Shown: one piece after another, positions 10,043 through 40,721 of the stretch
How positions within the stretch are numbered: the stretch's first letter is position 1
Layout of the letters: each line of letters starts with the position of its first letter
NCBI GenBank assembly: GCA_007376145.1
Contig: VMFP01000006.1
Span: 1-49,535, forward strand
Direction of reading: 5' to 3'
DNA from: Parcubacteria group bacterium Gr01-1014_38
Lineage (GTDB): Bacteria > Patescibacteriota > Andersenbacteria > UBA10190 > CAIZMI01
DNA length: 49,535 nucleotides
The notes under the pieces: generated by a model
Database searches by the model: none
Told to the model about the DNA's origin: nothing
Seen by the model: the letters and a program-made list of their open reading frames with translations, nothing else
Program-made: the position numbers and the translations under genes

Positions 10043-10070
10043 GGGCTCGCGCAGCCGTACGACGGGCCGG

Positions 10071-10360: not shown

Positions 10361-10368
10361 CCGCACAT

Positions 10369-11117: not shown

Positions 11118-11151
11118 AGGCTGGATTTCGAACCTCCAGCGGCCGTATTCG

Positions 11152-11160
11152 TGGTATGCT
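11152..11160 (+). promoter_or_regulatory. Extended -10 of the AbiEii module (leaderless)
   Basis: TGG-TATGCT ends 6 bases before ATG 11167, which puts the transcription start at the start codon. There is no convincing -35. Confidence 0.6.
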
Positions 11161-11166
11161 GAACGC

Positions 11167-13645: not shown

Positions 13646-13674
13646 GACTGTCAGTATATCAGGTTAGCCAGTAG

Positions 13675-13953: not shown

Positions 13954-13968
13954 ATATATCAGACCAGG

Positions 13969-14790
13969 TTAGGAGGTTTCGAAATCCTTCAACTTGTAAA
14001 ACCCGACGACGCCGTAGGTAAGGAGGAACAATCCTGTGGTCAGGACGAGGTCGCCAAACTGCGCATTGTAAAACGTGCCGGTGGTGGTGGTATACGAGAA
14101 AATTGAATCACCAATGAACATAACAAAGAGTCCAAGCAGGATGGTGATAAAATCGAGCGCGTACCGTCCCCCCATGTACTTGAACGATAGGCCGGAAACA
14201 ACGGCGGCGATGGCGAAGGCGAGGAAGTCTCCCAGTGGATAGACAATGTCCAGGATGATTTTCAACGGCGTTTCACTTTCTGGCACCAGGACGCCTCCTC
14301 GCGCGACAGTCACCAAAATATAGTATGAGATGGCAAAAATCACGATCGGGGCTACAACAGCAAATGCCTTGGCGTACGGATTGCGTAAACCGTACTTAGC
14401 CCCGGTGGCTTTGGAGAGATAAATGGCTCCCAAGCCATAGAAAAAGATACTCGGGGCAAATCCGATGTCGGCCAGGGAGGGGTATGGGGCTGGCTCGTTC
14501 AAGAAGAAATTATAGTACGACCAGATCGTCTCGCCGCCGCCCCACAAAAAGAGTCCAAGACCAATGAAGAAGACGGCTTTGCCGATAGCCGATGCGAACC
14601 CTCCCCACCGTTTGGCGCTGAGCATGGCCAGTAGGCCGCCTACAAGGGGGATTAATCCAAACAGGAATGAGTAGAGATAGTTGTAGAAGCCCTCTTTGGT
14701 GCCCGTGACGAAGAGGACAAGCCAGAAAACTACCAGGAGGACGTAAAAACCAGTGGTAATCCTCTGCGGAGTGTTCAAATGCACACTCAT
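13969..14790 (-). CDS. Multi-pass membrane protein, possible sensor partner
   Basis: A 273-aa protein with about eight hydrophobic helices (for example VLLVVFWLVLFVTG, VFFIGLGLFLWGGG, VVAPIVIFAISYYILV, FITILLGLFVMFIGDSIF). ATG 14790 is chosen because AAAGGTGG stands at ribosome-binding distance. Such proteins are often seen beside histidine kinases in CPR bacteria, and the shape resembles membrane-embedded sensory domains, but no ligand-binding motif is visible. It overlaps nothing, and its neighbours are the PLP decarboxylase upstream and the 92-aa gene downstream. Confidence 0.75.
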   Translation of the reverse strand: MSVHLNTPQRITTGFYVLLVVFWLVLFVTGTKEGFYNYLYSFLFGLIPLVGGLLAMLSAKRWGGFASAIGKAVFFIGLGLFLWGGGETIWSYYNFFLNEPAPYPSLADIGFAPSIFFYGLGAIYLSKATGAKYGLRNPYAKAFAVVAPIVIFAISYYILVTVARGGVLVPESETPLKIILDIVYPLGDFLAFAIAAVVSGLSFKYMGGRYALDFITILLGLFVMFIGDSIFSYTTTTGTFYNAQFGDLVLTTGLFLLTYGVVGFYKLKDFETS

Positions 14791-14825
14791 ACCACCTTTT
14801 ATTATATTCCCTTCACCGTTGGGGG

Positions 14826-15965
14826 TCAAACAAAATAGACATCGGGTTTCGGGAAGCCATTAAAGCGGCTGGCGGTCACTAAGCTGTAAGCTCCCACATC
14901 GTGCAGGATAAGCTTATCCCCCACGGCTAAGTCCTGGGGGAGCAAGGCCTCGTGCGTGATGATATCGGGCGAATCACCAGTCGGGCCGGCCAGGGCAAAG
15001 AGCATTTCTCCCGCATCGTAGGACGGGCGCAGACTGGTGACTTTGTACCGAGTTGACCCTTGATAGGCCATGGTTTCAAACAGGGCGTTGTAGACACCGG
15101 CGTCAAGAAAGAGCCAGGTACCGCTCTTTCGTTCGACTCGGCTGATGACAGTGGTGACCACGATCGCAGTTGTGGCCGCAATGCCGCGACCCGGTTCTAA
15201 CAGGAGCTGGGGTTGGTAGGGAAGTTTTTGGTACTGATCCAGCGTATGGCGGGCGATTTCCTCTAGGCTTAATTCCTCTTCCGTGGAGGCGTAGGCACAG
15301 GGGTAGCCACCGCCGATATCAATGATGTCGAGTTTGATCTTCAGTTTTTTCAGATGCTCCAGGGCTGGCTGCAAGCTTTCTAAAGCAGCGGCCCAGGCCA
15401 GAGGGTTACTGGCTTGGGAGCCCACGTGGAAACTGATGCCGTACGGATGCAACTCCAAGGCCTTGGCTCGTTGGAGTAGCGGAACAATGTTTTCTCTATC
15501 CGTGCCAAATTTTTCGGAAAACCTAAAAACGCTGCCGGTATCATTGACGATCACCCGAACATAGACGCGCGATTTCGGCGCCACGGCCGCAATTTTTTCC
15601 AGTTCAGGCAGTGAGTCAAAAGCAAAGCGGTCTACCCCATAGTCAAAAAACTCCTTGATATGGGAGCTGGGCTTAACTGACGTGCCGTAAATCATCTTTT
15701 CGGGCGGAACACCGACCTCTTTCAACATGTTGAGTTCATGTATAGAGGCGACTTCAAATCCGCTGCCAGCGTCAAAGAGCGTCTGCAGCAGCCCCGACTC
15801 GGCGTTGGCCTTCATGGCGTAGTGAATCAGCGATCCGGGAAAGTATTTCTGAAATTCCTGGAATTTGCCGGTGACTCGCTTGCGCGAAAAGAGGAAAAAC
15901 GGCGTGGCGTACTCGAGTTTCTCGAGAAGGCTGCGGTCAAATTCGGCATGAAGAGCAGCGGACAT
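14826..15965 (-). CDS. Fold-III PLP decarboxylase (ornithine/diaminopimelate decarboxylase family)
   Basis: A 379-aa protein. HYAMKAN carries the PLP-binding Lys, GISFHVGSQ and IDIGGGYP follow, LLLEPGRG contacts the phosphate, and VYNALFE is near the C-terminus, in family order. In eukaryote-like ornithine decarboxylases the active-site loop is GP-x-CDS-x-D. Here it reads GPTGDSPD, so the catalytic Cys is Gly. This argues for a different substrate (lysine or carboxynorspermidine-type) or a changed mechanism. ATG 15965 gives the usual family N-terminus. It sits 4 bases after an EamA transporter, which may move the substrate or polyamine product. Confidence 0.85.
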   Translation of the reverse strand: MSAALHAEFDRSLLEKLEYATPFFLFSRKRVTGKFQEFQKYFPGSLIHYAMKANAESGLLQTLFDAGSGFEVASIHELNMLKEVGVPPEKMIYGTSVKPSSHIKEFFDYGVDRFAFDSLPELEKIAAVAPKSRVYVRVIVNDTGSVFRFSEKFGTDRENIVPLLQRAKALELHPYGISFHVGSQASNPLAWAAALESLQPALEHLKKLKIKLDIIDIGGGYPCAYASTEEELSLEEIARHTLDQYQKLPYQPQLLLEPGRGIAATTAIVVTTVISRVERKSGTWLFLDAGVYNALFETMAYQGSTRYKVTSLRPSYDAGEMLFALAGPTGDSPDIITHEALLPQDLAVGDKLILHDVGAYSLVTASRFNGFPKPDVYFV

Positions 15966-15969
15966 ACGG

Positions 15970-16866
15970 TTAGAGCACCGACAATAGCATAATGCCGGCA
16001 ATGATGATCAGGCTGCCGACGGTTTGGATAAGAGTGACCCTCTCTCGCAAAAACAGGCGAGCGAGAATGATGGTAGGAAGCGAAAAGGCCCCGGAGAGCA
16101 GCGCCACCACGCTGGTGCGGGAAGTAGCGCTATAGCCGATGCTGATGGCGATGTAGGCAGCCGTTTCACACAATCCAATGAGGAAAAGAAATTTCCAGAT
16201 CGGGCGGCTGACAACAAATAAATCCACGCGCTGGACTATGGCTACGAAAAGGATGGCCAAGGTCATCGCGGCATACATAAAGAACGTGTATGACAGCCAG
16301 TCTTGGCCCCCGACAAACCAATCCCACCCGAGCGTCCACAGTGTGGCCAGGATGGTGGCAAAGGCGACCTCGCGAAAACCGGGAATGCGGGTGAAGCTTA
16401 GCCGCCGGGACCGCAGTGCTCGCATATCGAGGTTGATGAGCACGATACCGACAAAGAGTGTGGCTAACCCAAGCAGTAAGTATCCGCCTACCATTTCTCC
16501 AAAGACGACAATCGAGACGAAGGCGGTTAGTCCGGAAAAAGACGCGAAGACAGGACTTAATAGGCCGACTTGCCCTTTGCCAAAACCTTTATAAACAAAC
16601 AAGTAGACGACGGCTTGGAGCACGCCAAACAGAAGCAGCAACCCCCACGTTTGCATATCATCCGGCATAGCCACCCGCTGCCCGCGGACTCCGAATTGAT
16701 AGAGGGCCATGACAAATAGAACACCAGTACCGAAGATATGCCCCCAGGCGAGGCTGGCGACATCACCGATGCGATCAATGGTTTTCTTGGCAAAAAAGTC
16801 GGCTAGCCCCCAGCCCAGCATGCCACCCAGGCCCGCCGAAATAGCAATCAATAACTCAGTTTGCAT
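15970..16866 (-). CDS. EamA/DMT family transporter
   Basis: A 298-aa protein with ten predicted transmembrane helices in two halves (first LLIAISAGLGGMLGWGLADFFAKK, last SLIIIAGIMLLSVL), the DMT superfamily arrangement. Each half ends in the typical G-x-x-LI-x-x-G pattern. Such proteins export or import small metabolites such as amino acids. A TACACT hexamer ends 7 bases before ATG 16866, so this is probably the leaderless first gene of the leftward run ending with the histidine kinase. Its promoter side marks the left border of the repeat-punctuated island. Confidence 0.85.
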   Translation of the reverse strand: MQTELLIAISAGLGGMLGWGLADFFAKKTIDRIGDVASLAWGHIFGTGVLFVMALYQFGVRGQRVAMPDDMQTWGLLLLFGVLQAVVYLFVYKGFGKGQVGLLSPVFASFSGLTAFVSIVVFGEMVGGYLLLGLATLFVGIVLINLDMRALRSRRLSFTRIPGFREVAFATILATLWTLGWDWFVGGQDWLSYTFFMYAAMTLAILFVAIVQRVDLFVVSRPIWKFLFLIGLCETAAYIAISIGYSATSRTSVVALLSGAFSLPTIILARLFLRERVTLIQTVGSLIIIAGIMLLSVL

Positions 16867-16880
16867 GCTACATAGTGTAC

Positions 16881-17159
16881 TTAAAACTTACGACTTCGTT
16901 TGTGAGATTTTCCAGAGATCTTCGTACGCCGGGAGTGTTCCGCTGCGGTATGAAAAATGCGCAGGGCGCGCTTTTCGCCCTCCCGCTCCCACACTTCGGG
17001 CGGCGTCGTCTCGAGAATCTTCCGTGACCGCTCAATGGGCCACGCGAAGAAGTCGGCGTACAGTTTCTGCGCGAGCTTCCGGTTCTGCGCAGCCGCGGTG
17101 AGGGGCGTAAACCTTGGCGGCACCACGGGCAGCGGGAACGGAAGTGGGCGCTCGGGCAT
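16881..17159 (-). CDS. Island repeat protein, copy 1 (complete)
   Basis: A 92-aa protein: start MPERPLPFPLPVVPP, core RFTPLTAAAQNRKLAQKLYA, then FFAWPIERSRKILETTPPEV and a charged end. This is the best-preserved member of a nine-copy family, all on the minus strand. Comparison with copy 5 shows differences chiefly at third codon positions, which means selection for the protein. The fold is probably a Pro-rich N-terminal arm plus two helices; no catalytic motif is visible and the function is unknown. The last 18 residues (SRRTKISGKSHKRSRKF) are not shared and probably read into local sequence. The copy separates the EamA transporter from the PP-loop fusion gene. Confidence 0.72.
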   Translation of the reverse strand: MPERPLPFPLPVVPPRFTPLTAAAQNRKLAQKLYADFFAWPIERSRKILETTPPEVWEREGEKRALRIFHTAAEHSRRTKISGKSHKRSRKF

Positions 17160-17235
17160 GGGAATGTATCAGCGATATCGTCGCATATAGTGAGCATGGA
17201 GAGCAACCGTGCTGACGCCCCCCGCAAAAATTAAA

Positions 17236-17267
17236 TTAAAAAAGGCGACATCGTTGTGACATCGCCC
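17236..17267 (-). terminator. Terminator after the PP-loop fusion gene
   Basis: On the minus strand GGCGATGTC-ACAAC-GATGTCGCC is followed by TTTTTTAATTTAATTTTT, just after the stop at 17300. Confidence 0.9.
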
Positions 17268-17299
17268 TTTGAAGAGCACGCGCTGAATGAAGATGCGAA

Positions 17300-18559
17300 T
17301 CAGATTCCTTTCGCCAGTTCCCCCACAGCGTCCAGCATCTCGCACAAATGGCAGAGGTCGTTCTTGTCCTGCTGGTTGTCTATTCTCTGTGCAACGTACA
17401 CTCCCTGACAGTTCCGGCAGGCTTGGTGCTGAACAGCAACCGCTGCCCGGGTAAAGAGCTTCTGATAACCTTCAAACGCGTGGTAGGAGAATCCGGGCCA
17501 GAGCGTTTGAAGAGAATCCGCGACGAGGTACTGCACATCCCTGTTGGGACCACCGCGGTCATAGGCTGTAGGACTTCCTTGTGAAGAGTGGCTCGGCGGA
17601 GCCACGACTTCTAGATAGAGTGTCAGTTCCTTCTTTGTAATTGCCCAGAGAGGATAAATCAGCTCGAAGGGGCCCCACGATTTGCGATAGAACGACTCGC
17701 CGAATGGAATTCCATTCACCAGACTGCGAATGAGGGATGCTAAAAGGTCTTCGTTGTGCAGCCCGAACGCAACGGTGCGAATCGCGTGATCGGCATAATA
17801 CCGTTCGACTGCAGTCCGCATGATCGCATGGACGCAATTAATGGTCTTTGCGCGACCAAACTTCCGCAGGATTGCTTCGAGAGCCTCTTCGACCGTACCC
17901 CGAAGACCGAATAGACCCGCGACACCCTCGCTTCGTACGAATTCGTGCGGAACACCAAGGTTCTCTGACGCCGTGCTCGCGACATCGAGATCCGGTAGTT
18001 TCGATAAGCCGCAGACGGTAATGCCGCGAAGCGTGAAGGAGGGAAGCTGGTTTCGCGTTCGGGCAAGAAGATAGAGCAAGCTCAAGCTATCTCGCCCGCC
18101 CGAGAGCGCTAAGCCAATGTTGCTTCCCTCTTTGATGAGCTGTCTCTCTTGCACGCTCTGAACGAAATATCTTTCGAGGAATTCTGGAAATTCCTGGAAT
18201 GGAATTTGTTCCTCGGCAAGATCCGCGTACCCGCTCGCGTCGAACCACAGAACCCTCTTGGTGTACGAGTGAGGATCTGCTGATTCCGCGTGTTGCTTGT
18301 CGGCGCTCGTCCATGCCCCTAACTCTCGGAGAAAGTCCGGAAGAAGATACGCACGCACCATCTCGAAAACAAATTCATCTCCTCCTTCCATACGCACATG
18401 CTCGTTGACGATTTTCCCATTGCGCCGAACGATCACCGCGTCAAGTGGAATGTGATGCGAAAACAGAAAAGACTCGACAGACTGCCCCGCTTCTGCATGA
18501 AGGGAATGCTTGCGGTCCAGTCTATCCGTAAGAACAACAGAAACCATCTGACTCGCCAT
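17300..18559 (-). CDS. ThiS/MoaD-like sulfur carrier domain fused to a TtcA/Ncs6-type PP-loop ATPase
   Basis: A 419-aa protein. Residues about 5-68 have the beta-grasp pattern of ThiS/MoaD sulfur carriers (HIPLDAVIVRRNGKIVNEHV, then GGDEFVFEMV) but no C-terminal GG, because the chain continues. From about 130 it is an ATP pyrophosphatase: GLALSGGRDSLSLLYLL is the SGGxDS PP-loop. The C-terminus has paired CxxC motifs (CRNCQG and CHLCEML) like the zinc site of TtcA/TtuA/Ncs6 enzymes, which 2-thiolate tRNA. In the TtuA system sulfur arrives on a separate ubiquitin-like TtuB, so a fused carrier domain is plausible but unusual. ATG 18559 follows GAGGAG. The gene belongs to the HisRS block. Confidence 0.75.
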   Translation of the reverse strand: MASQMVSVVLTDRLDRKHSLHAEAGQSVESFLFSHHIPLDAVIVRRNGKIVNEHVRMEGGDEFVFEMVRAYLLPDFLRELGAWTSADKQHAESADPHSYTKRVLWFDASGYADLAEEQIPFQEFPEFLERYFVQSVQERQLIKEGSNIGLALSGGRDSLSLLYLLARTRNQLPSFTLRGITVCGLSKLPDLDVASTASENLGVPHEFVRSEGVAGLFGLRGTVEEALEAILRKFGRAKTINCVHAIMRTAVERYYADHAIRTVAFGLHNEDLLASLIRSLVNGIPFGESFYRKSWGPFELIYPLWAITKKELTLYLEVVAPPSHSSQGSPTAYDRGGPNRDVQYLVADSLQTLWPGFSYHAFEGYQKLFTRAAVAVQHQACRNCQGVYVAQRIDNQQDKNDLCHLCEMLDAVGELAKGI

Positions 18560-20368: not shown

Positions 20369-20587
20369 TCACATTGACGCCTCTGATACGCCGCTCCGAC
20401 TGAGTCCTTCTCGTTCCCACACGTCCGGCGGCGTCGTCTCGAGAATCTTCCGCGACCGCTCAATGGGCCAGGAGAAAAACTGCGCGTAGAGTTGCTGGGC
20501 GAGCTTCCGGTTCTGCGCCGCTGCCGTCTGGGGCGTGAACCGAGGCGGAACCACGGGCAGCGGGAACGGGAGTGGCCGGTCGGGCAT
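20369..20587 (-). CDS. Island repeat protein, copy 2 (complete)
   Basis: A 72-aa member with MPDRPLPFPLPVVPP, RFTPQTAAAQNRKLAQQLYA, FFSWPIERSRKILETTPPDV and a short tail. ATG 20587 is chosen by alignment to the other copies; an in-frame upstream start would add 29 unrelated residues. A TATTCT hexamer abuts the ATG. The copy lies between the hisS start and the promoter of the first GRDP-like gene. The about 175 bases between hisS and this copy hold no gene and presumably the hisS promoter. Confidence 0.72.
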   Translation of the reverse strand: MPDRPLPFPLPVVPPRFTPQTAAAQNRKLAQQLYAQFFSWPIERSRKILETTPPDVWEREGLSRSGVSEASM

Positions 20588-22021: not shown

Positions 22022-22188
22022 AGAGCATCTTCCGCGACCGCTCAATCCCGTAGAGCGGGACCGGTGGGCCAGGCGAAGAACTGGGCGTACAGCTTCTGCG
22101 CGAGCTTCCGATTCTGCGCGGCGGCGGTCAGGGGCATGAACCGCGGGGGGATGTACGGCAGCGGGAATGGGAGCGCCTGCTCGGGCAT
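22022..22188 (-). pseudogene. Island repeat protein, copy 3 (interrupted)
   Basis: From ATG 22188 the frame reads MPEQALPFPLPYIPPRFMPL, TAAAQNRKLAQKLYA and FFAWP. It is then broken by a 19-base insertion at 22047-22065 containing CCCG-TAGAG-CGGG, which ends the protein at TGPALRD. Sequence beyond the insertion (encoding ERSRK) continues to about 22022 and then diverges. It is a decayed copy with a small hairpin insertion. Confidence 0.75.
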
Positions 22189-26908: not shown

Positions 26909-28098
26909 ACATATTGATGTTCACCTCGCGGTACGGCGAGGGGTACGGCATGGGGTATTCCGCGTACAAGGAGGCGGAAGCGTTGCGCAAAGGAGGCCAT
27001 AGTGTGAGCGTTGTTCACTGCGACCACAGAGCGACGCGCTATAACTATCCCGGGATTCAATTCCACTACCTACCATTGCCCACTCCGCCAGGCTTGGGAA
27101 TACTTATTTTCTCTCTGCGGCTGTGGCGCATGTGTAAACTCATAGATGTCGACAACTTCGACGTTCTCTACCTCCAATCACTGGAATTCGGGCTGTTACG
27201 CTTACGGCCTCACCGGCATAAGATATTTTACTTTGCGCGCAGCACGATTAAGGGCACACGCGCTGCGCAGCGACGTGCCGGAGCGCATTCGCTTATGCAA
27301 TTCGTGAACGACGCACTGCTAATTTTCTTAGAGAACAGGTGTCTCCAATGCGCTTCGAAAATTTTCGTGAAGTCTTCGGTCATGAAGGGGGAACTACAGA
27401 AATACTACGGGGTTCAGAGCGACAAAGTCCGTACCATCTCCGGCGGAATCGACAGCCGCGAATTCTATCGAATGTCGCCTGATGAGGTTCGTAAACGCAG
27501 AGTTCGATGGAGCGTGCCGCGGGATTCCTTCGTCGTTCTTTACGCCGGAAGAATCGTCCCGCAAAAAGGCCTTCGCGACCTCGTGGTGGCTTCCTCATTT
27601 TTGCGCCTCTCCATCAACCGCTACCTCCTGCTCATCGCTGGAGAAGTTACCGACAGGACATACAAGAAGCAACTCGACCGGATCATTGCTTCGCACGGAC
27701 TTCAGAAGTCCGTGCGATTCCTCGGGCATGTTGACCAGCGGGAAATTGCGGGATTGATCAATATCGCCTCGTGTCTCGCGAGCCCCTCGCTGTACGAGCC
27801 GTTCGGGATGATCAACCTCCAGGCGGCGCTGATTGGCAAGCCTGTTATCTTGACCGGAGCCACGGGCGCGCTTGACATTCTCTCGGGTCTCGAGCACGTG
27901 TACGTGGTCCGCCCGCAGGCACCACAAGAGATAGAGAGCGCGATATTACGAGTGGCGAATTCCCCGCGCGAGACTACAACTCCACTTACCACTGGACAGT
28001 TATCGTGGGACCACGTAGCGACGAAAATCGCTGAGGAATTTAAAGCTGCTCGGTCGGCGCCAGATGGCCGTGGTTCCTTACCTCATGAAACACGGTGA
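26905..28098 (+). CDS. GT4-family glycosyltransferase (GT-B fold)
   Basis: A 397-aa protein with an N-terminal Rossmann half (MNILMFTSRYGEGYGMGYSA, where glycine-rich GYGMGYSAYKEAEAL binds the acceptor side) and a C-terminal donor half: VVLYAGRIVPQKGLRDLV, SVRFLGHVDQREIAGLIN, and SPSLYEPFGMINLQAALIGKPVI with the E-x7-E-like sugar-nucleotide motif. It transfers a sugar from an NDP-sugar to an unknown acceptor. ATG overlaps the upstream frame by 4 bases. The last 20 residues are read through the antisense 3' end of repeat copy 4, suggesting the natural C-terminus was altered by that insertion. Confidence 0.88.
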   Translation: MNILMFTSRYGEGYGMGYSAYKEAEALRKGGHSVSVVHCDHRATRYNYPGIQFHYLPLPTPPGLGILIFSLRLWRMCKLIDVDNFDVLYLQSLEFGLLRLRPHRHKIFYFARSTIKGTRAAQRRAGAHSLMQFVNDALLIFLENRCLQCASKIFVKSSVMKGELQKYYGVQSDKVRTISGGIDSREFYRMSPDEVRKRRVRWSVPRDSFVVLYAGRIVPQKGLRDLVVASSFLRLSINRYLLLIAGEVTDRTYKKQLDRIIASHGLQKSVRFLGHVDQREIAGLINIASCLASPSLYEPFGMINLQAALIGKPVILTGATGALDILSGLEHVYVVRPQAPQEIESAILRVANSPRETTTPLTTGQLSWDHVATKIAEEFKAARSAPDGRGSLPHETR

Positions 28099-28303
28099 GG
28101 GCGCGTTTTTGGCCCTCCCGCTCCCAGACCTCTGGGGGCGTCGTCTCAAGAATTTTCCGCGACCGCTCTATTGGCCACGCAAAAAACTGTGCGTAGAGTT
28201 TCTGCGCGAGCTTCCGATTCTGCGCGGCCGCCGTGAGCGGCGTGAACTTCGGCGGAACAACGGGCAGCGGGAACGGGAGCGCAGAATACGCCATGGACGG
28301 CAT
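28040..28303 (-). CDS. Island repeat protein, copy 4 (complete)
   Basis: An 87-aa member: MPSMAYSALPFPLPVVPP, KFTPLTAAAQNRKLAQKLYA, FFAWPIERSRKILETTPPEV, then a unique tail HEVRNHGHLAPTEQL. ATG 28294 is an alternative start. Its 3' end overlaps the glycosyltransferase 3' end by 59 bases on the opposite strand. It divides the glycosyltransferase run from the TPP-decarboxylase run. Confidence 0.72.
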   Translation of the reverse strand: MPSMAYSALPFPLPVVPPKFTPLTAAAQNRKLAQKLYAQFFAWPIERSRKILETTPPEVWEREGQKRALTVFHEVRNHGHLAPTEQL

Positions 28304-31603: not shown

Positions 31604-31849
31604 TCAATCTTCAAACGCCGACAGACGCTCCGCGACCGCATGAAACACCTGGAGGGCGCGTTTCTCGCCCTCCCATTCCCAGACCTCTGGGGGCGTCGTC
31701 TCAAGAATTTTCCGCGACCGCTCAATGGGCCACGCGAAGAAGTCGGCGTACAGTTTCTGCGCAAGCTTCCGATTCTGCGCGGCAGCGGTGAGCGGCGTGA
31801 ACTTCGGCGGAACAACGGGCAGCGGGAACGAAAGGGCCCTGTCCGGCAT
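31604..31849 (-). CDS. Island repeat protein, copy 5 (complete)
   Basis: An 81-aa member: MPDRALSFPLPVVPP, KFTPLTAAAQNRKLAQKLYA, FFAWPIERSRKILETTPPEV, ending HAVAERLSAFED. Against copy 1 the changes are overwhelmingly third-position (for example GTG to GTT, CTC to CTT, AAG to AAA), with R-to-K and R-to-W the few replacements. A TACACT hexamer ends 3 bases before the ATG. It sits downstream of hicA on the same strand. Confidence 0.74.
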   Translation of the reverse strand: MPDRALSFPLPVVPPKFTPLTAAAQNRKLAQKLYADFFAWPIERSRKILETTPPEVWEWEGEKRALQVFHAVAERLSAFED

Positions 31850-31986
31850 GGGAGTGTATCGGTTGCATCGTGGCATAGACGGATACGAGGAGCAACCGCG
31901 CACACACCGCAGCCTGTAGGAGGGACGCGACACAGAACCTCGCGCAGCATCGCGGAGACTTCCTCCCGCGAAAATCAGGAGCGTAG

Positions 31987-32214
31987 CTAGACCCCCCGCC
32001 AGATGCTCGGCGGAATTCCCGACTGCCGAATGATACTCCGGAGTGTCCCCGGTTTCAGCGTGCCGGGATGAAACGGAACGGTCACCTGCTTTCCCGACTG
32101 GGGATGGATGAAGCGCCGGTGGCTTCCCTCCTGCCGCCGGAAAAGAAATCCCTGCGCCCGCAGAAATTGCTCAACCTCGCGCGGTCGCCAATTCTGGAGC
32201 GCGCGGGGTGACAT
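31987..32214 (-). CDS. hicA: HicA family mRNA interferase toxin
   Basis: A 75-aa protein: WRPREVEQFLRAQGFLFRRQ, then GSHRRFIHPQSGKQVTVPFH with the catalytic His of the HicA dsRBD-like fold, and LKPGTLRSIIRQSGI. HicA cleaves mRNA and is neutralised by HicB. ATG 32214 matches the family length and overlaps the hicB 3' end by 44 bases; a longer frame upstream adds unrelated residues. Order hicB-hicA is the reverse of the classical E. coli order but common elsewhere. Confidence 0.85.
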   Translation of the reverse strand: MSPRALQNWRPREVEQFLRAQGFLFRRQEGSHRRFIHPQSGKQVTVPFHPGTLKPGTLRSIIRQSGIPPSIWRGV

Positions 32215-32572
32215 GCGCAGGCTGCTTTGCGGCAACGAGGGCGGGAAGCGCGATCGTAAAGACAAAATACACCGGACGGAGTGAGCGCGGAACACGCCCA
32301 GCGCGGAGCGCCTCGTGCACGCGCCAGTAGGAAGCGGGAGCCCAGCGATTCAAGAGGCCGTGAGAGAGCCGATCCACCACCACTCCCCGCACATGAAGCC
32401 AGACGGCTTCCGTGAGGCTCTGGAGGAGCGCGAGAGGATCCTCCATCTCCTCCACAATATCGAGTTCGAGCGCGACCCCCGTAAACCACCGATCCTTCTT
32501 TCGGCGAAAGACGACCAGGGTAACCTGTCCTCCCTCGAGGGTGTTCCGGCGCATTGCCTCCGGTTTCATCAT
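32171..32572 (-). CDS. hicB: HicB-like antitoxin
   Basis: A 133-aa protein. TLVVFRRKKDRWFTGVALELDIVEE resembles the HicB partial RNase H fold (a short strand pair, then the peptide normally reading CP-x-L-x-G), followed by helices DPLALLQSLTEAVWLHVRG. The C-terminus is basic and Pro-rich rather than a clear helix-turn-helix. ATG 32572 overlaps the TGA of the truncated repeat copy 6 as TGATG, so hicB may be translated by coupling from that remnant. Assignment relies partly on the neighbouring hicA. Confidence 0.7.
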   Translation of the reverse strand: MMKPEAMRRNTLEGGQVTLVVFRRKKDRWFTGVALELDIVEEMEDPLALLQSLTEAVWLHVRGVVVDRLSHGLLNRWAPASYWRVHEALRAGRVPRSLRPVYFVFTIALPALVAAKQPAHVTPRAPELATARG

Positions 32573-32700
32573 CACCGAAGATACTGCGGCTGCGCGATCC
32601 CGTCAACGCGCGCGAGCTTCCGGTTTTGCGCGGCCGCAGTTTGGGGAGTAAACCAGGGCGGCACCACGGGCAGCGGGAACGGCAACGGCTGTTCGGACAT
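32572..32700 (-). pseudogene. Island repeat protein, copy 6 (5' fragment)
   Basis: From ATG 32700 it reads MSEQPLPFPLPVVPPWFTPQ, TAAAQNRKLA, and then unrelated RVDGIAQPQYLR and stop. Homology to the family ends exactly after KLA (about 32612). The fragment remains open and its TGA is merged with the hicB start, making it an upstream leader frame for the toxin-antitoxin operon. Confidence 0.75.
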
Positions 32701-34345: not shown

Positions 34346-34537
34346 CTACGCGGATACGCGCTCGGCGGCGGCATGAAAGACTTGCAGGGCGCGTTTTTGA
34401 CCTTCACGTTCCCACACCTCCGGCGGGATCGTCTCGAGAATCTTCCGCGACCGCTCGATGGGCCACGAAAAAAACTGCTGATAGAGTTCGCTCGCGAGCT
34501 TCCGGTTCTGCGCGGCCGCCGTGAGCGGGGTGAACCT
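34346..34537 (-). pseudogene. Island repeat protein, copy 7 (3' part without start)
   Basis: Minus-strand frame RFTPLTAAAQNRKLASELYQ, FFSWPIERSRKILETIPPEV, ending HAAAERVSA and TAG. The start codon and the Pro-rich MPERPLPFPLPVVPP segment are missing, replaced abruptly at about 34537 by the promoter region of an AbiEii-type module. No in-frame start exists before the upstream stop. Copy 8 on the far side of the module has the missing start-proximal part. Confidence 0.75.
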
Positions 34538-34571
34538 CGCACCACGCGCACTTCACGCTTCCGAAGCGGCG

Positions 34572-34580
34572 TGGTATAAT
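34572..34580 (+). promoter_or_regulatory. Extended -10 of second AbiEii module (leaderless)
   Basis: TGG-TATAAT is a consensus extended -10 and ends 6 bases before ATG 34587. Confidence 0.75.
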
Positions 34581-34586
34581 TCTCTC

Positions 34587-34817
34587 ATGAAGTTCCGGCG
34601 CGCGCTTTTTTGGGACACGGACCCTCGGAAGCTGAACGCGCGCACGCACGCCACGTACATCATCGAACGCATTGCGGACTTCGGGACCGCCGCGGAGATT
34701 CGCTGGGCGATCCGGCAGTACGGGCTCCGAAAGTTCCGAGAGGTCGTGCGGACGTCCCGCGCCGTTGACCCCATGACCCGAAACTTGTGGCACCGCGTTC
34801 TCTCCCGCAAAAGCTAG
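34587..34817 (+). CDS. Putative antitoxin of AbiEii pair (DUF6922-like)
   Basis: A 76-aa protein MKFRRALFWDTDPRKLNART..., with YIIERIADFGTAAEIRWAIR and YGLRKFREVVRTSRAVDPMT. This W-D-x-D-x-R-K-L-D...I-I-E-R-I pattern characterises small proteins encoded just before AbiEii-type nucleotidyltransferases and presumed to be antitoxins. It is homologous to the gene at 11167. The gene overlaps the toxin start by 31 bases. The promoter is a perfect extended -10 with no leader. Confidence 0.75.
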   Translation: MKFRRALFWDTDPRKLNARTHATYIIERIADFGTAAEIRWAIRQYGLRKFREVVRTSRAVDPMTRNLWHRVLSRKS

Positions 34818-35461
34818 AGCGGTACCAACTCGCGACTATCCCGCTGCCGACTCTTCGCCTCCTGGAGCAGCTGGCGGAAGCCTCCTGGATACGCACCTGG
34901 TACCTTGCCGGAGGGACCGCGCTCGCTCTCCACTACGCCCACCGGTCATCCGAGGATCTCGACTTCTTCACGGAACAACGGAGCTTCCGTGGACAGCTCC
35001 TCGCGGAGCGTCTTCCGTCCGTCGCGCCGTGGCAAGCGACGCTGCAACGAAAAGGCACACTGTACGGGAGGCTCGGCGGCGTGAAAATCTCCTTCATCGC
35101 CTACCCCTGGTTCCGGCCTGCGCACGTGGAGCGTGCGGGGTACCTCCGCATCCTTGGGCCTGATGACATCGCCGTCATGAAGATGATCGCCGTTGCCCAA
35201 CGCGGCCGGCGCCGCGATTTCGTGGACCTCTACACGTACTGCCGGCGCGGACACGCGCTCGGCACGCTGCTCGAGCGGGTGCGGAGGCAGTACCCCGACC
35301 GCACGCCGGATATCGCCCATCTCCTGCGGAGCCACGTCTTCTTCGACGACGCGGAGAAGGATCCACCGGTACGTCTCGTGGAACCCGTTGCGTGGCGCAC
35401 GATCACCGCGTTCTTCGAGCGCGAAGTGTCCGCGCTCGGAAAAAAATACTTCGGTCTCTAA
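34787..35461 (+). CDS. AbiEii/AbiGii-type nucleotidyltransferase toxin
   Basis: A 224-aa protein from GTG 34787. TWYLAGGTALALHYAHRSSEDLDFFTE is the complete family motif: GGTALAL...H-R-x-S-x-D-L-D-F. ILGPDDIAVMKMIAVAQRGRRRDFVDLYTYC provides the conserved K-x-x-A-x-x-x-R-x-x-x-D-x-x-D segment. Unlike the copy at 11375 it keeps the D-L-D acidic pair. It is expected to inactivate a cellular target by nucleotide transfer when its antitoxin is lost, acting in abortive infection or element maintenance. The module sits precisely between two parts of a split island repeat (copies 7 and 8). Confidence 0.88.
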   Translation: MAPRSLPQKLERYQLATIPLPTLRLLEQLAEASWIRTWYLAGGTALALHYAHRSSEDLDFFTEQRSFRGQLLAERLPSVAPWQATLQRKGTLYGRLGGVKISFIAYPWFRPAHVERAGYLRILGPDDIAVMKMIAVAQRGRRRDFVDLYTYCRRGHALGTLLERVRRQYPDRTPDIAHLLRSHVFFDDAEKDPPVRLVEPVAWRTITAFFEREVSALGKKYFGL

Positions 35462-35541
35462 CGGAAACTCCCCCGCTTCGCCGCTTCCTGGCGATCGTGG
35501 CGGAGGCACGGCGGCGGCTGGTCGGTTGAGACTATCGTTGC

Positions 35542-35640
35542 GCGAGCTTCCGGTTCTGCGCGGCAGCGGTCAGAGGAGTAAACCGCGGCGGCACCACAGG
35601 CAGCGGGAACGGAGGACAAACGCCCTGCGCGTTCTGGCAT
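35542..35640 (-). pseudogene. Island repeat protein, copy 8 (5' fragment)
   Basis: A start-proximal fragment: ATG 35640 (MPERA) is followed, after a frameshift, by PPFPLPVVPPRFTPLTAAAQ and NRKLA, then QR and a stop at 35532. Homology ends just after KLA, as in copies 6 and 9. With copy 7 it shares about 46 bases of core in direct orientation on either side of the AbiEii module. Confidence 0.75.
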
Positions 35641-35691
35641 GACCAGAGACGGTGGCGGCGGTGCCTGGGAGACGCTTCACATGCTCACCGC

Positions 35692-35973
35692 CTAGCGGTA
35701 GACCCGGTGATCGCCGACGTCGAACAACAGGGCGGCATCCGACCGGAGAAAGCGAAACAGGACGCGGTGCCGACGCGTGAGCGAGAATGACCAGTACCCT
35801 TCGAGCGACCCGTGGAGCTTGTGGGTTCGCAAGCGCGGATCAAAGGCATTCCGCTTAAACCAGCCGAGTCGCTCTTCCGCACTGCGCCGGAGGTCCAAAG
35901 GCAGGCGTGCAGACGCACGCGCAAAGTGGCTCGTGAAGCGAACCTCACGGATCGGACGCGGCGCCGCAGCCAT
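35692..35973 (-). CDS. RelE/ParE-superfamily toxin (YafQ/mRNA-interferase-like)
   Basis: A 93-aa protein: VRFTSHFARASARLPLDLRR, NAFDPRLRTHKLHGSLEGYW, SFSLTRRHRVLFRFLRSDAA and LLFDVGDHRVYR. The order helix - R-T-H-K-L-x-G - W-S - R-H-R-V-x-F - D-x-G-x-H-x-x-Y is that of RelE/YoeB/YafQ ribosome-associated mRNA interferases. It lies 5 bases after the antitoxin gene with AAGGCGG before ATG 35973. Confidence 0.85.
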   Translation of the reverse strand: MAAAPRPIREVRFTSHFARASARLPLDLRRSAEERLGWFKRNAFDPRLRTHKLHGSLEGYWSFSLTRRHRVLFRFLRSDAALLFDVGDHRVYR

Positions 35974-35978
35974 CTGCG

Positions 35979-36227
35979 CTACGCCGCCTTCTTGCCCCGC
36001 CAGGGCCGGAGCGACCGAAGCCGTTTTGTTCGTCCCGCGCGGTGCTCGGCCTCTCCCTCGCGGATGATGCGCTGCACCTCGAGAAGCTCTAACATCCGCT
36101 TCGCCTCGTCGGTCCCGTACGGGAGAACGGTCTCGAGGTACGACCGGACATACCGTTCCAGATTAGCCGTCAGTTGCGCGACCTTGCGTGGGTCGAGTCG
36201 TACGGTCTTCGCCCTGCCATCCGCCAT
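35979..36227 (-). CDS. Antitoxin of the RelE-type module
   Basis: An 82-aa protein MADGRAKTVRLDPRKVAQLT..., with ANLERYVRSYLETVLPYGTD and EAKRMLELLEVQRIIREGEA. The N-terminal short beta strand (AKTVRLDP) plus helices fits a ribbon-helix-helix-like DNA-binding antitoxin; the basic C-terminus (GRTKRLRSLRPWRGKKAA) would wrap the toxin. A promoter TTGCGC - 17 bases - TAGAGT lies just upstream on the minus strand. The module is bounded by repeat copies 8 and 9. Confidence 0.75.
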   Translation of the reverse strand: MADGRAKTVRLDPRKVAQLTANLERYVRSYLETVLPYGTDEAKRMLELLEVQRIIREGEAEHRAGRTKRLRSLRPWRGKKAA

Positions 36228-36385
36228 GGTACGTGCACTCTACCTCGTGAGTGCCCGCCGCGCAATGCCCGCGCCCGTACCAAGCGCTCACAGCTCCGAA
36301 CGGTCGCCCATCCTCGGTGGACGTTTTGGGACGGCCTCTGCCGGCGCACTCCTTCCAGCAGAAAAAGCCATGCAGAGAACTGCTC

Positions 36386-36506
36386 GCGAGCTTCCGATTC
36401 TGCGCGGCGGCGGTAAGGGACGTGACCCCCGTTAGAAGCCGAGCTTCTAACGGGGGAACCGCGGCGGCACCACGGGCAGCGGGAACGGGAGAGCTTTCTC
36501 GGGCAT
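36386..36506 (-). pseudogene. Island repeat protein, copy 9 (interrupted 5' fragment)
   Basis: From ATG 36506: MPEKALPFPLPVVPPRF, then a 31-base palindrome, then TSLTAAAQNRKLAS and a degenerate continuation. Apart from the insertion the core is well conserved; homology fades after KLA. It borders the RelE-type module and is the last copy of the series on the right. Confidence 0.75.
36426..36456. repeat. Perfect palindrome inserted in repeat copy 9
   Basis: CCCCCGTTAGAAG - CCGAG - CTTCTAACGGGGG, a perfect 13-bp stem with a 5-base loop, interrupts the coding core. It resembles REP-type hairpins mobilised by single-strand (Y1/RAYT) transposases, but no such transposase is in the window. Confidence 0.85.
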
Positions 36507-36597
36507 CTTTAGTTTCCCTCATTGTCCACCGGGTGAGCGGGAGAGGGCAAGTACGCCCGAACACGCGAAGTGTTCAGGAATGCGGTACGATGATCGC

Positions 36598-37749
36598 GTG
36601 GAGCGGCGCCTGCGGACGAAGGAAGTCCTCACGATCCCCACCGGCCGCAGCATGGCGGATGAGGCGGTGCGCCGCGGCGCGATTGATCTCGCGCAAGGAG
36701 TGCTCCATGCCGAACCACCGCCTGTGCTCCTCGAGCTTCTTGCGGAAGTCAGCCGCCAGCCGCACGCGCACGTGTACGCGTCTCCCCGGGGCGTGCCGGA
36801 ATACCTCGAAGCGCTCGCGGACCTTCTCCGCAGGGAAGGCGTCTCGGCCGCACCGGCGAACATTCTCGGAAGCTCGGGGAACACCGGCGGCCTCATGGCC
36901 GCGCTGCTCGCGCACTGCAACGCGGGCGACCGCGTGCTCCTTCCCGAACCGTTCTACCCCGCCCACCTGTGGGCGATTCGCGCCGCGCGCTGCGAGCCAG
37001 TCTTTCTGGAGTGTACCAAAGAATTCTCTCCGGAAGAGGACAACCTGCGGCACCATCTCCAGAACGTCCGTGCTGCCATCATCTGCAATCCCGCGAACCC
37101 CTCCGGCGCCGTGTGGCCGCGTGCGCTCCTCGAATCCGCGATTGACATCGCTCGTGGCAAAGATGTTCTTCTCATCGTGGATGAAACGTACAAGGATTAC
37201 GTCTGGGAAGGATCATTCATCAGTCCGCTTACTCTCACGGACGACTGGCGCGGGCTCGTCGTGCTCCGAAGCTTCTCGAAAACGCTCGCGATCGCCGGAT
37301 GGCGGGCGGGGTACACGATCTCTGCACCGGAACGCATCGCCGCGATGACGCACCAGATTCACGACGCGCTCTACGTCGGCGCGCCGTCCCTCCCCCAGCT
37401 TGTCCTCACCCGTGCCCTCCGCACACACCGCGCGGAGCTCGACCGCTTCGTCACGGAAAACGTCGCGCGCTATCGCGAGAGCCGCACCCAGCTCGCGGAT
37501 GTCTTTCACTCCGTCGGCATGGAGCCCGTCCTCCCCCAGGGCACGTTCTACATGCTCGTGAAGCACAATCGAGAGAGCGATATCGCGGCGACGACAGAAC
37601 TCCTCGACGCCGGCGTCGCCGTCGCGCCGGGCCAAGCCTTTTTTCAGGATCCCACAAAACCGAGCGGCACCATCCGCATCCACTTTGCGGTGAGCCCGGA
37701 GACGGTGGAGGAGGTGCGGAAGCGGCTGGCGCCGCTGCGGGTCGGTTGA
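36598..37749 (+). CDS. Fold-I PLP aminotransferase (class I/II)
   Basis: A 383-aa protein. NILGSSGNTGGLMAALLA is the cofactor-phosphate loop, IICNPANPSGAVWPR the substrate-side N-P-x-N-P-x-G motif, VDETYKDYVW the PLP-ring Asp/Tyr region, and VLRSFSKTLAIAGWRAGY the Schiff-base Lys with phosphate-binding Arg. It exchanges amino groups between an amino acid and an oxo acid; specificity is open (aspartate/aromatic/alanine type). TACGAT ends 6 bases before GTG 36598; an in-frame ATG at 36580 lies upstream of the predicted transcription start and is less likely. Its 3' end is partly duplicated at 38320. Confidence 0.88.
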   Translation: MERRLRTKEVLTIPTGRSMADEAVRRGAIDLAQGVLHAEPPPVLLELLAEVSRQPHAHVYASPRGVPEYLEALADLLRREGVSAAPANILGSSGNTGGLMAALLAHCNAGDRVLLPEPFYPAHLWAIRAARCEPVFLECTKEFSPEEDNLRHHLQNVRAAIICNPANPSGAVWPRALLESAIDIARGKDVLLIVDETYKDYVWEGSFISPLTLTDDWRGLVVLRSFSKTLAIAGWRAGYTISAPERIAAMTHQIHDALYVGAPSLPQLVLTRALRTHRAELDRFVTENVARYRESRTQLADVFHSVGMEPVLPQGTFYMLVKHNRESDIAATTELLDAGVAVAPGQAFFQDPTKPSGTIRIHFAVSPETVEEVRKRLAPLRVG

Positions 37750-37780: not shown

Positions 37781-38023
37781 ATGACCACGCAGCTTCGGAC
37801 CCCGATCCACGTCTCGCATCACCGCCTCCTCCGCAAGATGGAGGCGTCCAGCGGGCTGCCGAAGCGCACCCTCGTGGAGCGCGCTTTGGAACTTCTCGCC
37901 GAGAATGTCCTTCGTGACCCGAAAGCCCGAGCGCTCCTGAATGACATCCAGCAGGCCGAGAGCGACCTCCGGGCCGGGCGGACCCTGAGCCTCCCACACT
38001 ACGAGCGTTCCCGCGGCCGGTGA
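37781..38023 (+). CDS. RelB-like antitoxin
   Basis: An 80-aa protein MTTQLRTPIHVSHHRLLRKM..., with EASSGLPKRTLVERALELLA and LLNDIQQAESDLRAGRTLSL. The pattern beta-strand, then a helix beginning GLPKRTLVERALELL, is typical of ribbon-helix-helix repressors. The AG-x-T-L-S-L ending is a toxin-binding tail common in RelE-pair antitoxins. It lies 4 bases before the toxin gene. Confidence 0.8.
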   Translation: MTTQLRTPIHVSHHRLLRKMEASSGLPKRTLVERALELLAENVLRDPKARALLNDIQQAESDLRAGRTLSLPHYERSRGR

Positions 38024-38027
38024 GTCC

Positions 38028-38288
38028 ATGGAGATCGTCCTCTCGGCCAAAGCGCAGGACGATCTCGACCGGCTGGCACGGTCCAATCCGAAGATCGAGC
38101 AGAACGTTCGTGCGCACCTCCGGCGGCTCCCGGCGGCCTACCGAAGCGATCCGATGCTGAGAGGAATCTTCCGAGGATACCGACGTCACCGCGTCGGAGC
38201 CTATCGGGTCATCTACCGGACCGATCCGGAAACCGATACGCTCCTGATTGTCAGAATCGGCCATTGTCGGGAGATCTACGACCGCTGA
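38028..38288 (+). CDS. RelE/ParE-type toxin
   Basis: An 86-aa protein MEIVLSAKAQDDLDRLARSN..., with MLRGIFRGYRRHRVGAYRVI and TDTLLIVRIGHCREIYDR. The R-x-x-R-x-G-x-Y-R-V-I-Y strand pair and final V-x-x-I-G-H-R-x-x-I-Y-D are the RelE/ParE hallmarks; the basic RRHRVGAYR contributes the active surface. Whether it cleaves mRNA at the ribosome or targets gyrase cannot be told. The pair lies between the aminotransferase 3' end and its partial duplicate. Confidence 0.88.
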   Translation: MEIVLSAKAQDDLDRLARSNPKIEQNVRAHLRRLPAAYRSDPMLRGIFRGYRRHRVGAYRVIYRTDPETDTLLIVRIGHCREIYDR

Positions 38289-38310
38289 CCCCGCGCTTGT
38301 TGCCGCCATC

Positions 38311-38368
38311 ACTCCGCGTTGAGCCCGGAGACGGTGGCGGAGGTGCGGAGGCGGCTTGTTGGGTAACG
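38311..38368 (+). repeat. Partial duplicate of the aminotransferase 3' end
   Basis: The stretch encodes ALSPETVAEVRRRL and a TAA, matching AVSPETVEEVRKRL near the end of the aminotransferase. Bases 38320-38356 match 37691-37727 with 2 mismatches in 37. The two lie in direct orientation on either side of the RelBE-like module. Confidence 0.85.
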
Positions 38369-38389: not shown

Positions 38390-39631
38390 TTATTGCCCGC
38401 GGACTCGCCGGAGTGCTCCGTGGAACTGCGTGATGAATGCCTCGGTCTGCTTTCGACGTGCTTCGACGCGCTCTGGACTGTCGTAGTTGGGGATGAGTAC
38501 AGAGGCAAGCGAGAGAATGGCTCGCTGGTCAGTGACCGGCTGGCCGGTGAGGATCTTGCGGACGGCGACGGCAACGGCGACGCCATTGAGTAGGGCCGCG
38601 CCGCCGAGCTGCGGCCATGTGGGGATCGTCTTCCCGATTTCAAGAAGCGATGCCTGCATGCGAGGCTCGACAATCTCCCAGCCGACGAGATGTTCGCCGA
38701 TCGTTTGTCCGACCACGGGCAGGGGAAGCTTTTCCCCGGCCCGAATGCGTGCCGCGATCTCCTCGGGCAACCGCCCGTGGAACGGTTTTGTGCTTGGATC
38801 GAGGTCGTACCGCTCAATGTCAATGAGTCCGCTGTCGCCGTTGTCCGTGGCCATCACGACGGGGATGCGGCGCTTTTTGGCTTCTTCCCGGATCCGCAGC
38901 TTCATACCAAGGTTATCAATCTCGTCAATCACCACGTTCAGTTGTGGGGGACCGTCAAAGAATCGCTCGATATTCTCTGCGGTCAGGCCATCCGTGAAGA
39001 GCGTGAGGTTAGCATAGGGATCAAGTTCATAGATCTGCTGCGCGGTCATGGAGACCTTCGGCTTGGTGAGGTCCGCAATGCTCCCGCGAATGCGGTTCAG
39101 GTTGGTGAGCTCGAGCGTATCGTGATCGGCCAGTCGGAGCCGTTTGGCGCCTCCCATGAGCACAAGCGCAAGCGCGACGCTGTTCCCCACGGACAGCCCC
39201 GCGATGCCGACGGTGCTGTGGTAGTACTTTTCCTGCTCGTCGGGAGGAATGAGATTGCGGTTCCGCGCGGTGCGGACATGCTGGAACTCCTCGTCCGGCA
39301 GGAGATGGAGGAGCGTATCGCGCCAGGGAAGATACGTCCACAGCCCCGCCCGCCACGGCTCTTTGCCGCCATCGTGCGCTTCCCGGTACGGCGCGAACTC
39401 CGTTTCGAGACGCACCTTGTCCTGATAGAGAGAGGGGTACTGGAGGATGAAGAGCTCCTTCAACTGCTGCTCGTACCGGTCAATAACCATCAGATGCGGA
39501 TTCTCGTCCAGCAGCTGGGAAAGCCGGGTTTGGTCGTCGTCGCGGGAGAGGTTGAAGAACTGCGGTTTGGGTTCCCGCGGCGCTTCGGCGGACGGCCGCA
39601 ACCGCGATACAAGGTCAGAAGAATACTTCAT
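38390..39631 (-). CDS. ThiF/E1-like adenylyltransferase family protein
   Basis: A 413-aa protein. STVGIAGLSVGNSVALALVL is the nucleotide-binding Gly motif (normally GxGxxG, here GLSVG), and LRLADHDTLELTNLNRI is the D-x-D/N-L-N-R ATP-binding signature of the ThiF/MoeB/E1 fold. The remainder has no clear catalytic Cys or CxxC zinc pairs, so a sulfur-carrier or ubiquitin-like role is uncertain. Its start overlaps the nitroreductase stop (ATGA). ThiF-nitroreductase pairs or fusions occur in actinobacteria and elsewhere, implying that the two act together. Confidence 0.82.
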   Translation of the reverse strand: MKYSSDLVSRLRPSAEAPREPKPQFFNLSRDDDQTRLSQLLDENPHLMVIDRYEQQLKELFILQYPSLYQDKVRLETEFAPYREAHDGGKEPWRAGLWTYLPWRDTLLHLLPDEEFQHVRTARNRNLIPPDEQEKYYHSTVGIAGLSVGNSVALALVLMGGAKRLRLADHDTLELTNLNRIRGSIADLTKPKVSMTAQQIYELDPYANLTLFTDGLTAENIERFFDGPPQLNVVIDEIDNLGMKLRIREEAKKRRIPVVMATDNGDSGLIDIERYDLDPSTKPFHGRLPEEIAARIRAGEKLPLPVVGQTIGEHLVGWEIVEPRMQASLLEIGKTIPTWPQLGGAALLNGVAVAVAVRKILTGQPVTDQRAILSLASVLIPNYDSPERVEARRKQTEAFITQFHGALRRVRGQ

Positions 39632-40659
39632 GCGCGAAGCACATCCTCCGCTGAACGCCGCGGCGTCGGATGCGGATCGTCCGGCCCATAGCCGATCCGC
39701 AGGAGCGTTTGCGCGCGCAAGCCGGTGATGCCAAGAAGCCGCTCGACCTGTTCGTGGAGCACCCCGGCCTCAAACGGCCCGGCGTACGGCGCGGCGCGCA
39801 GCCCATGCGCCACCGCGGCAAGCCAGACGCGCTCAAGAGCGACACCCACTTTCACCCATCCGCGCGGAGCGTCCTCCTTCGCACTGAATATGGCAACGAG
39901 TGGACTGCCAACGATGCGCAGTTGTGCTTTTTTGGCTTCTGCTTTCGCCATCGGCGGTAGGCGCACCATGACGCGGGCGAGAAGCGATGGTGCGTCAGAA
40001 ACACCAACCGCAAAGCCGGGCATACCGTCGGGCTGCTTGGTGAAATTATTCCGCACCCATCGGGAGAGTTCGGCGCGGAAGTCCGCGCGGCCGAGGGTTT
40101 CGAGCGTCGCCTGCGCCGTCAACTCTGCGAGTTGAAGAATCTGTTCTTTCTGCGTGACCAGATCGAGACGCACCTCCGGATCGCTCACCTGACCGCGGAG
40201 CCGCTGGAGGGTGTCAACAGGAACCGGACGCTGCTCGTAGGGAGCGCGATTCGTATGGCGCCGCGTGATTGCGGCAAAGAGCGCGTCGTTCCCCGGCGGT
40301 TCCGTCCCGCCGGAAACGAATGAGAACCGCGCAACGGGCAGGCCGCTGCCGCCGGAAAAATCTTCCTCGGCAACCCGAAAACCAAAATGCTCCGCCGCGA
40401 TGCGCAGGTTCGCCAGCGCGCACCCGAGGCTCACGTAGAGCTCGCGGTGCGTGGGATCCGACACGGAAAGCGCCCGAGAGAACTCGGGGAAGATGGTGAG
40501 GTGATTTCCCTCCACACGGAACACCCATGGCTGCGTGTTGTGCGCTGACGGCGCCAGCACGGCGTAGCGAAGGAGGAAGCGAAGTTTCTCCTCGAGTGCG
40601 CCATCCCGAGGGAGATCCGCTTCCCGGACAGTCCATGCTGCATAGGACCCAGCGCGCAT
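39628..40659 (-). CDS. Nitroreductase-family flavoprotein
   Basis: A 343-aa protein. The N-terminus FLLRYAVLAPSAHNTQPWVF is the FMN-binding A-P-S-x-x-N-x-Q-P-W motif; AAITRRHTNRAPYEQRPVP follows, and VALERVWLAAVAHGLRAAPY is the C-terminal L-x-A-x-x-x-G motif. It uses FMN and NAD(P)H to reduce an unknown substrate, or acts as a dehydrogenase or flavin-destructase-like enzyme as in the BluB/ThcOx relatives. ATG 40659 is preferred over the longer frame because a TATGGT hexamer lies 9 bases upstream. Coupled to the ThiF-like gene. Confidence 0.85.
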   Translation of the reverse strand: MRAGSYAAWTVREADLPRDGALEEKLRFLLRYAVLAPSAHNTQPWVFRVEGNHLTIFPEFSRALSVSDPTHRELYVSLGCALANLRIAAEHFGFRVAEEDFSGGSGLPVARFSFVSGGTEPPGNDALFAAITRRHTNRAPYEQRPVPVDTLQRLRGQVSDPEVRLDLVTQKEQILQLAELTAQATLETLGRADFRAELSRWVRNNFTKQPDGMPGFAVGVSDAPSLLARVMVRLPPMAKAEAKKAQLRIVGSPLVAIFSAKEDAPRGWVKVGVALERVWLAAVAHGLRAAPYAGPFEAGVLHEQVERLLGITGLRAQTLLRIGYGPDDPHPTPRRSAEDVLRA

Positions 40660-40689
40660 CGTGCGATCACCATACGCTGATTCCGTCGA

Positions 40690-40721
40690 GAAGAAAAAGC
40701 CCCTGATCACGTGATCAGGGG
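40690..40721 (-). terminator. Rho-independent terminator of the 72-aa membrane gene
   Basis: On the minus strand CCCCTGATCACGTGATCAGGGG is followed by CTTTTTCTTC. The perfect 22-base palindrome includes the TGATCA boxes. Confidence 0.88.

Follow-up and report, generated by a model that had tools for sequence, protein, structure and literature searches.

The window, i.e., the complete 49,535-bp contig C8 analyzed here, carries nine direct copies of the 5′ end of a PaaK-like ligase gene, with toxin-antitoxin pairs and other genes lying between them. The copies are spread over 16.9 to 36.5 kb, all nine on the minus strand and all intergenic, and are 63 to 90% identical, a similarity far above chance (pairwise E values down to 1e-74). 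The contig is metagenome assembled (genome G000; 1.03 Mb, 25 contigs, 95% complete), and the array is known from the assembly alone. We are inclined to regard the locus as a module-acquisition hotspot at the 5′ end of the ligase gene, run by ordinary homologous recombination.

The repeats are displaced 5′ ends of a ligase gene

The repeat corresponds to the first ~75 codons of a gene for a 535- to 545-aa PaaK-like ligase that is intact in G003, G009, G010, and G012 (“Ca. Andersenbacteria” RIFCSPHIGHO2_02_FULL_46_16), four genomes of the same order as the window genome. Rather than a separate gene family, the repeat represents the displaced beginning of a far longer ligase gene. The name PaaK-like is to be read loosely, as matches to the phenylacetate-CoA ligase family TIGR02155 reached 28.8 to 60.9 bits against a cutoff of 646 and the full-length relatives resemble PDB entry 4r1l at the superfamily level only (E 2e-8). 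The comparison set comprised 13 genomes of the same class, and the E. coli control covered 50 kb only.

The original prediction had proposed looking for an intact version of the repeat gene in relatives, and such a gene is indeed present: in G009 and G003 an uninterrupted ligase gene adjoins, as a divergent neighbor, the same aminotransferase gene that is found in the window, where copy 9 occupies the place of the ligase start. The window aminotransferase is also encoded in the other genomes with a full-length ligase, and G005 gave a weak match. Neither the repeat nor the ligase is present in two genomes of the same family. The window genome yielded no part of the ligase body, although the gene may sit in the missing 5%; the intact end of the array therefore cannot be seen. 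The 81-aa repeat used alone as a query against the genome contigs returned no matches. A weak match on contig C16 (40%) proved to be a noncoding frame adjoining an rpoB-like gene, and one in G006 lay inside ribosomal-protein genes; both were discarded.

Local repetition is concentrated in the array, with 28 direct-repeat pairs (not independent of each other) in the 22-kb array region versus 2 in 268 kb from other contigs of the same genome. No inverted copies occur within this region, nor were inverted repeats of the copies found. The left part of the window has two more local direct repeats, at 7076-7144/8899-8969 and 11074-11122/12104-12152.

Copy boundaries and the modules between them

The copies retain different stretches of the ligase start. 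Copies 1 (16935..17187; tblastn against the G009 ligase, E 1e-11) and 5 (31607..31877) reach codons ~76 and ~74, respectively, and each contains a complete short ORF. Copy 4 (28084..28285) covers codons ~4 to 71, copy 2 (20406..20587) codons 1 to 61, and copy 3 (22023..22188) codons 1 to ~42, the match resuming for 24 bp after an 18-bp insertion (22047-22064). Copies 6 (32610..32700; codons 1 to 31) and 8 (35539..35612; codons 7 to 31) both end directly after the residues KLA. Copy 7 (34346..34539; codons ~15 to 74) lacks the start side, and copy 9 (36385..36506) consists of a core (36385-36431) and a start half (36456-36506) separated by a perfect-arm 31-bp hairpin at 36426-36456 (CGTTAGAAGC..GCTTCTAACG). 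The arms of this hairpin, with other loops, recur at four more places in the genome (C14, C18, and twice in C24), forming a small dispersed palindrome family.

The original prediction had described copy 7 as lacking the start-proximal part and copy 8 the distal part, with some 46 bases of core in common in direct orientation; we found the same truncations and an overlap of ~48 bp (FTPLTAAAQNRKLA). Its proposal that copies 6, 8, and 9 all stop just after KLA stands for the first two, whereas in copy 9 similarity is strong as far as codon 31 and continues, more weakly, for another ~30 bp (36355-36384). With the remaining ends at codons 71 to 76 (copies 1, 4, 5, and 7), 61 (copy 2), and ~42 (copy 3), breakpoints differ from copy to copy, and the idea that recombination in the core prefers one point found no support. 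Neither can copies 7 and 8 be the halves of one copy split by the AbiEii genes, or a simple target duplication, since the best core match of copy 7 is copy 4 (91%) and that of copy 8 is copy 3 (87%), compared to 83% between copies 7 and 8.

The module between copies 7 and 8 consists, as had been predicted, of an AbiEii pair on the plus strand. A small DUF6922 protein (34587..34817; PF21956, E 2e-17), the probable antitoxin partner, is encoded upstream of and overlapping the gene for the AbiEii-type nucleotidyltransferase toxin (34787..35461; PF08843, E 8e-18). The toxin domain scores over the cutoff and the overlapping arrangement is that of a type IV AbiE system, with DUF6922 in place of a classical AbiEi. 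The pair is followed by a likely remnant of an aminotransferase 3′ end (35482..35529, plus strand; ..VAEARRRLVG and stop), which scored 39 against 26 for the next unrelated sequence (blastn E 3e-4). Between copies 8 and 9, also in agreement with the prediction, lies a minus-strand RelE-type module (35692..36227) made up of a RelE/YoeB-like toxin gene (35692-35973; PF06769, E 0.005, below the cutoff) and an upstream ORF in antitoxin position without a match (35979-36227).

Further modules bounded in this manner include a minus-strand HicAB-type pair between copies 5 and 6 (31987..32575), with a HicA toxin (PF07927, E 2e-20) and an upstream ORF in HicB position without a Pfam match, as well as nontoxin genes. 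The remaining intervals contain ordinary genes, e.g., those for histidyl-tRNA synthetase, a glycosyltransferase, and a methyltransferase. Each of the AbiE, RelE, and HicA ORFs begins at a start of its own, they occur on either strand, and none is fused in frame to a displaced fragment. Promoter-like sites accompany several modules: TTGACG-17-TATCTT begins a few bp past the end of copy 6, ahead of the HicA pair, TTCACG-17-TATAAT lies between the edge of copy 7 and the start of the DUF6922 ORF, and another site overlaps the stop codon of the aminotransferase gene, ahead of a ParE pair; this promoter rule was noticed post hoc, and the spacing of the −10 box fitted it in some cases only.

The class I/II aminotransferase gene itself (36580..37749, plus strand; PF00155, E 1e-55) diverges from copy 9, the pairing seen in G009 and G003. 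Inserted after it, on the same strand, are a ParE-family toxin gene and its upstream partner ORF (37781..38288; PF05016, E 5e-14), followed by a second aminotransferase 3′ end (38303..38366, plus strand; LSPETVAEVRRRLVG and stop; 85% over 54 bp, score 77). The region 37781-38366 shows the same sort of insertion with flanking duplication, at a gene end and not a gene start. The ThiF-like and Acg-like genes that come next (38390-40710) resemble the ThiF/nitroreductase genes adjoining the ligase gene in Wolfebacteria, which points to one recurring gene neighborhood.

Comparable arrays in related genomes

One more Andersenbacteria genome and three species of Wolfebacteria show the same succession of promoter and ligase start, complete transcription unit, and next ligase start, always in one direction. 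G012 has three additional ligase starts with their promoter, in line with and upstream of the ligase gene at a contig end, and between them genes for radical-SAM proteins, methyltransferases, and an LD-carboxypeptidase; the start of its ligase gene shares a frameshift with one of the fragments. Several radical-SAM/SPASM proteins, methyltransferases, and the LD-carboxypeptidase surround the ligase at 9467-18468 of the G012 locus L028, suggesting a peptide-modification gene cluster. Two of the cargo units there (L028:8994-9100 and 12309-12400) share an initial palindrome, TTTGTCAATAATTATTGACAAA, which may be a common operator.

At the Wolfebacteria locus L092, a sharply bounded segment of 122 bp, made up of the promoter TTGCAC-17-TATACT and 28 codons, is present six times in one direction at 94 to 100% identity and is restricted, within its genome, to the ligase locus. 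By eye, terminator-like hairpins stand just ahead of several of these promoter-bearing copies, and the G012 repeat carries a promoter too. Junctions in Wolfebacteria cluster within ~12 bp, each cargo has a TTGACA/TTGACT box 10 to 25 bp past the junction, and the displaced fragments, like those of G012, meet stop codons soon after it. A cargo of ~790 bp is found downstream of the ligase gene in L092 and directly upstream of it in L077, and a hydrolase cargo lies between copies 2 and 3 in L092 and directly before the ligase gene in L090. These same modules at different positions, and their being bounded by segments of one gene, support the part of the original prediction that saw modules inserted into, or exchanged through, the repeat gene; the simple split by AbiEii and a specificity for toxin-antitoxin modules found no support.

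What is duplicated of the ligase gene is always its 5′ region; the body and 3′ end contribute nothing, self-palindromes excepted. Response-regulator 3′ ends are also duplicated beside the Wolfebacteria insertions. Ligase starts were duplicated in 6 of 66 cases versus 32 of 712 for other gene starts, a modest excess, and against this control the case for a unique tendency of ligase starts to be duplicated is weak. Local direct repeats are common throughout the Wolfebacteria genomes G013 and G014, with 56 and 54 pairs per 200 kb; these repeats of 40 to 400 bp (L154 to L173) are direct rather than inverted by 56 to 12 and 54 to 4, respectively. In L091, from a CPR genome, a different small gene has a displaced promoter and ~29 codons (3434-3531 and 4466-4563) followed directly by the TTGACA promoter of a cargo. 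With repeats common elsewhere and this gene showing the same anatomy, the ligase appears as one site among others, perhaps among many. What looked like a duplicated promoter in L081 proved to be a case of tandem paralogues.

Divergence among the copies and routes of module gain

Differences between the window copies are mostly silent (omega 0.06 to 0.20, dS 0.3 to 1.4), with 30 of the 37 variable columns at third codon positions. Substitutions private to single copies gave an omega of 0.14 in the longer copies and 0.26 in the truncated ones; in the latter (copies 3, 6, 7, 8, and 9), 24 private changes are synonymous and 17 nonsynonymous (P 1.5e-5), although the counts are small and the method is simple. 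A signal of constraint is missing only from copy 9, which occupies the ancestral site; this copy, however, has just four private changes. Broken fragments could not be so constrained, and most of the divergence therefore arose within working ligases. The private changes fit starts imported from different donors, or captured from a resident gene that was itself changing, better than duplication in place with subsequent decay. The window copies accordingly do not look like decayed local duplicates but like starts of distinct functional ligases that arrived together with modules.

The low omega and third-position variation, together with the complete short ORFs of copies 1 and 5, could also speak for stand-alone genes encoding a ~75-aa protein, a freed N-terminal domain that was selected and locally duplicated with the modules merely in between. 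We consider this distinctly unlikely, as truncated, startless, and stop-interrupted copies have nearly the same signature, which they could not have gained as broken genes, and the fragments in Wolfebacteria and G012 run into stops right after the junction. It is also unlikely that the resident ligase-aminotransferase region was amplified in tandem and then eroded by deletions and interrupted by later gene insertions. Duplication of aminotransferase 3′ ends (35482-35529, 38303-38366) and of response-regulator 3′ ends by the Wolfebacteria insertions would fit such a history; yet 9/9 window fragments are 5′ ends, no remnant of the ligase body was found in the genome, the copies have diverged to a dS of 0.3 to 1.4 with constrained private changes, and the Wolfebacteria fragments travel with their cargo.

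Uniform orientation (9/9), as in an integron, discrete modules of which several are toxin-antitoxin pairs, Wolfebacteria junctions within ~12 bp, and the common end of copies 6 and 8 are, in turn, what suggests a site-specific cassette system, integron-like or Xer-module-like, with its site inside the ligase start and a recombinase acting from elsewhere in the genome. This we deem very improbable. No integrase was found at the array locus, and G000, G013, and G015 each encode a sole Xer-type tyrosine recombinase, off the locus in every case (in G000 the single PF00589 match is on contig C1, not C8). Serine recombinases are absent from G013 and G015, while G000 has one, on contig C24. The repeats show no attC-like fold (z −0.1 to −1.7; individual DNA folding values −0.06 to −1.67, the copy 9 hairpin alone standing out), and breakpoints vary both between and within genomes. 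A transposon or MITE is likewise not indicated, as neither inverted copies in the 22-kb region nor inverted repeats of the copies were found.

Under the hotspot model that we favor, complete transcription units, i.e., toxin-antitoxin pairs and other genes, would arrive linked to the promoter and start of a donor ligase gene, and the donor start would recombine homologously with that of the resident ligase gene or with one of its earlier copies. After every event, the cargo would be flanked on one side by a direct copy of the gene start. Repeated events would build a one-direction array, later exchange between copies would reshuffle the modules, and unused starts would decay; in the window genome, the ligase body would have been lost and the starts alone would remain. 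We infer the donor origin of the starts, RecA-type recombination, and DNA uptake alike. A ComEC-type competence protein is encoded in 5/5 genomes tested, and with no Xer-type gene at the locus and no serine recombinases in G013 and G015, homologous recombination, perhaps after uptake, would be the simplest mechanism. Against the model, no donor with a matching module and ligase start was found for the window. Moreover, two of the six L092 copies lie downstream of the ligase gene, so that insertion at the ligase start alone is insufficient.

Partial parallels exist in known systems. In T4-type phages, PeSL promoter/stem-loop cassettes between genes are thought to mediate shuffling among related phages, according to the outline in PMC4503421 (citing Arbiol 2010 and Comeau 2014). 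The likeness lies in repeated segments between genes and, judged by eye in Wolfebacteria, in a repeat that is a promoter with terminator-like hairpins before several copies; the difference is that the arrays described here are in a bacterial chromosome and their repeat adds tens of codons of one enzyme gene, the window repeat being longer and protein coding in character. At rhs loci, orphan modules are displaced fragments of the main gene with toxin cargo, kept and reused via homologous recombination with the main gene (PMC3967940). Both cases have toxin cargo alongside fragments displaced from a single main gene, but in rhs loci the toxin and the displaced C-terminal part are fused, whereas here the 5′ end is displaced and the cargo forms separate transcription units. 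The Acinetobacter dif/pdif modules (PMC12907356, PMC13141974) are likewise discrete, shuffled, and inclusive of toxin-antitoxin genes; they are bounded by short Xer sites, while the edges here are 75- to 250-bp copies of a gene start with varying ends, in a genome where an Xer-type gene is present. Chromosomal integrons share the small modules and the one-direction repeats between them but differ in that the present locus has no integrase and no attC-like fold and its repeats contain coding sequence of a known gene. No arrays of this kind in CPR bacteria were found described in the open-licence papers searched.

Little is understood of how CPR bacteria, whose genomes are very small, come by their variable genes. 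To judge from the arrays of related lineages, such bacteria may accumulate and rearrange genes at duplicated gene starts, with no recombinase gene nearby. It is possible, if rather doubtful, that several CPR (Patescibacteria) lineages share a general, unrecognized intake of whole transcription units at a resident promoter and start, with displaced starts as both record and next landing sites and no dedicated recombinase, and that this is perhaps a main route for gaining toxin-antitoxin and peptide-modification genes. Displaced starts of one recognizable gene are a searchable marker that shows the joins between modules and preserves some record of the donors. Were the model to hold, gene gain without integrases in CPR lineages would be directly testable in long-read metagenomes.
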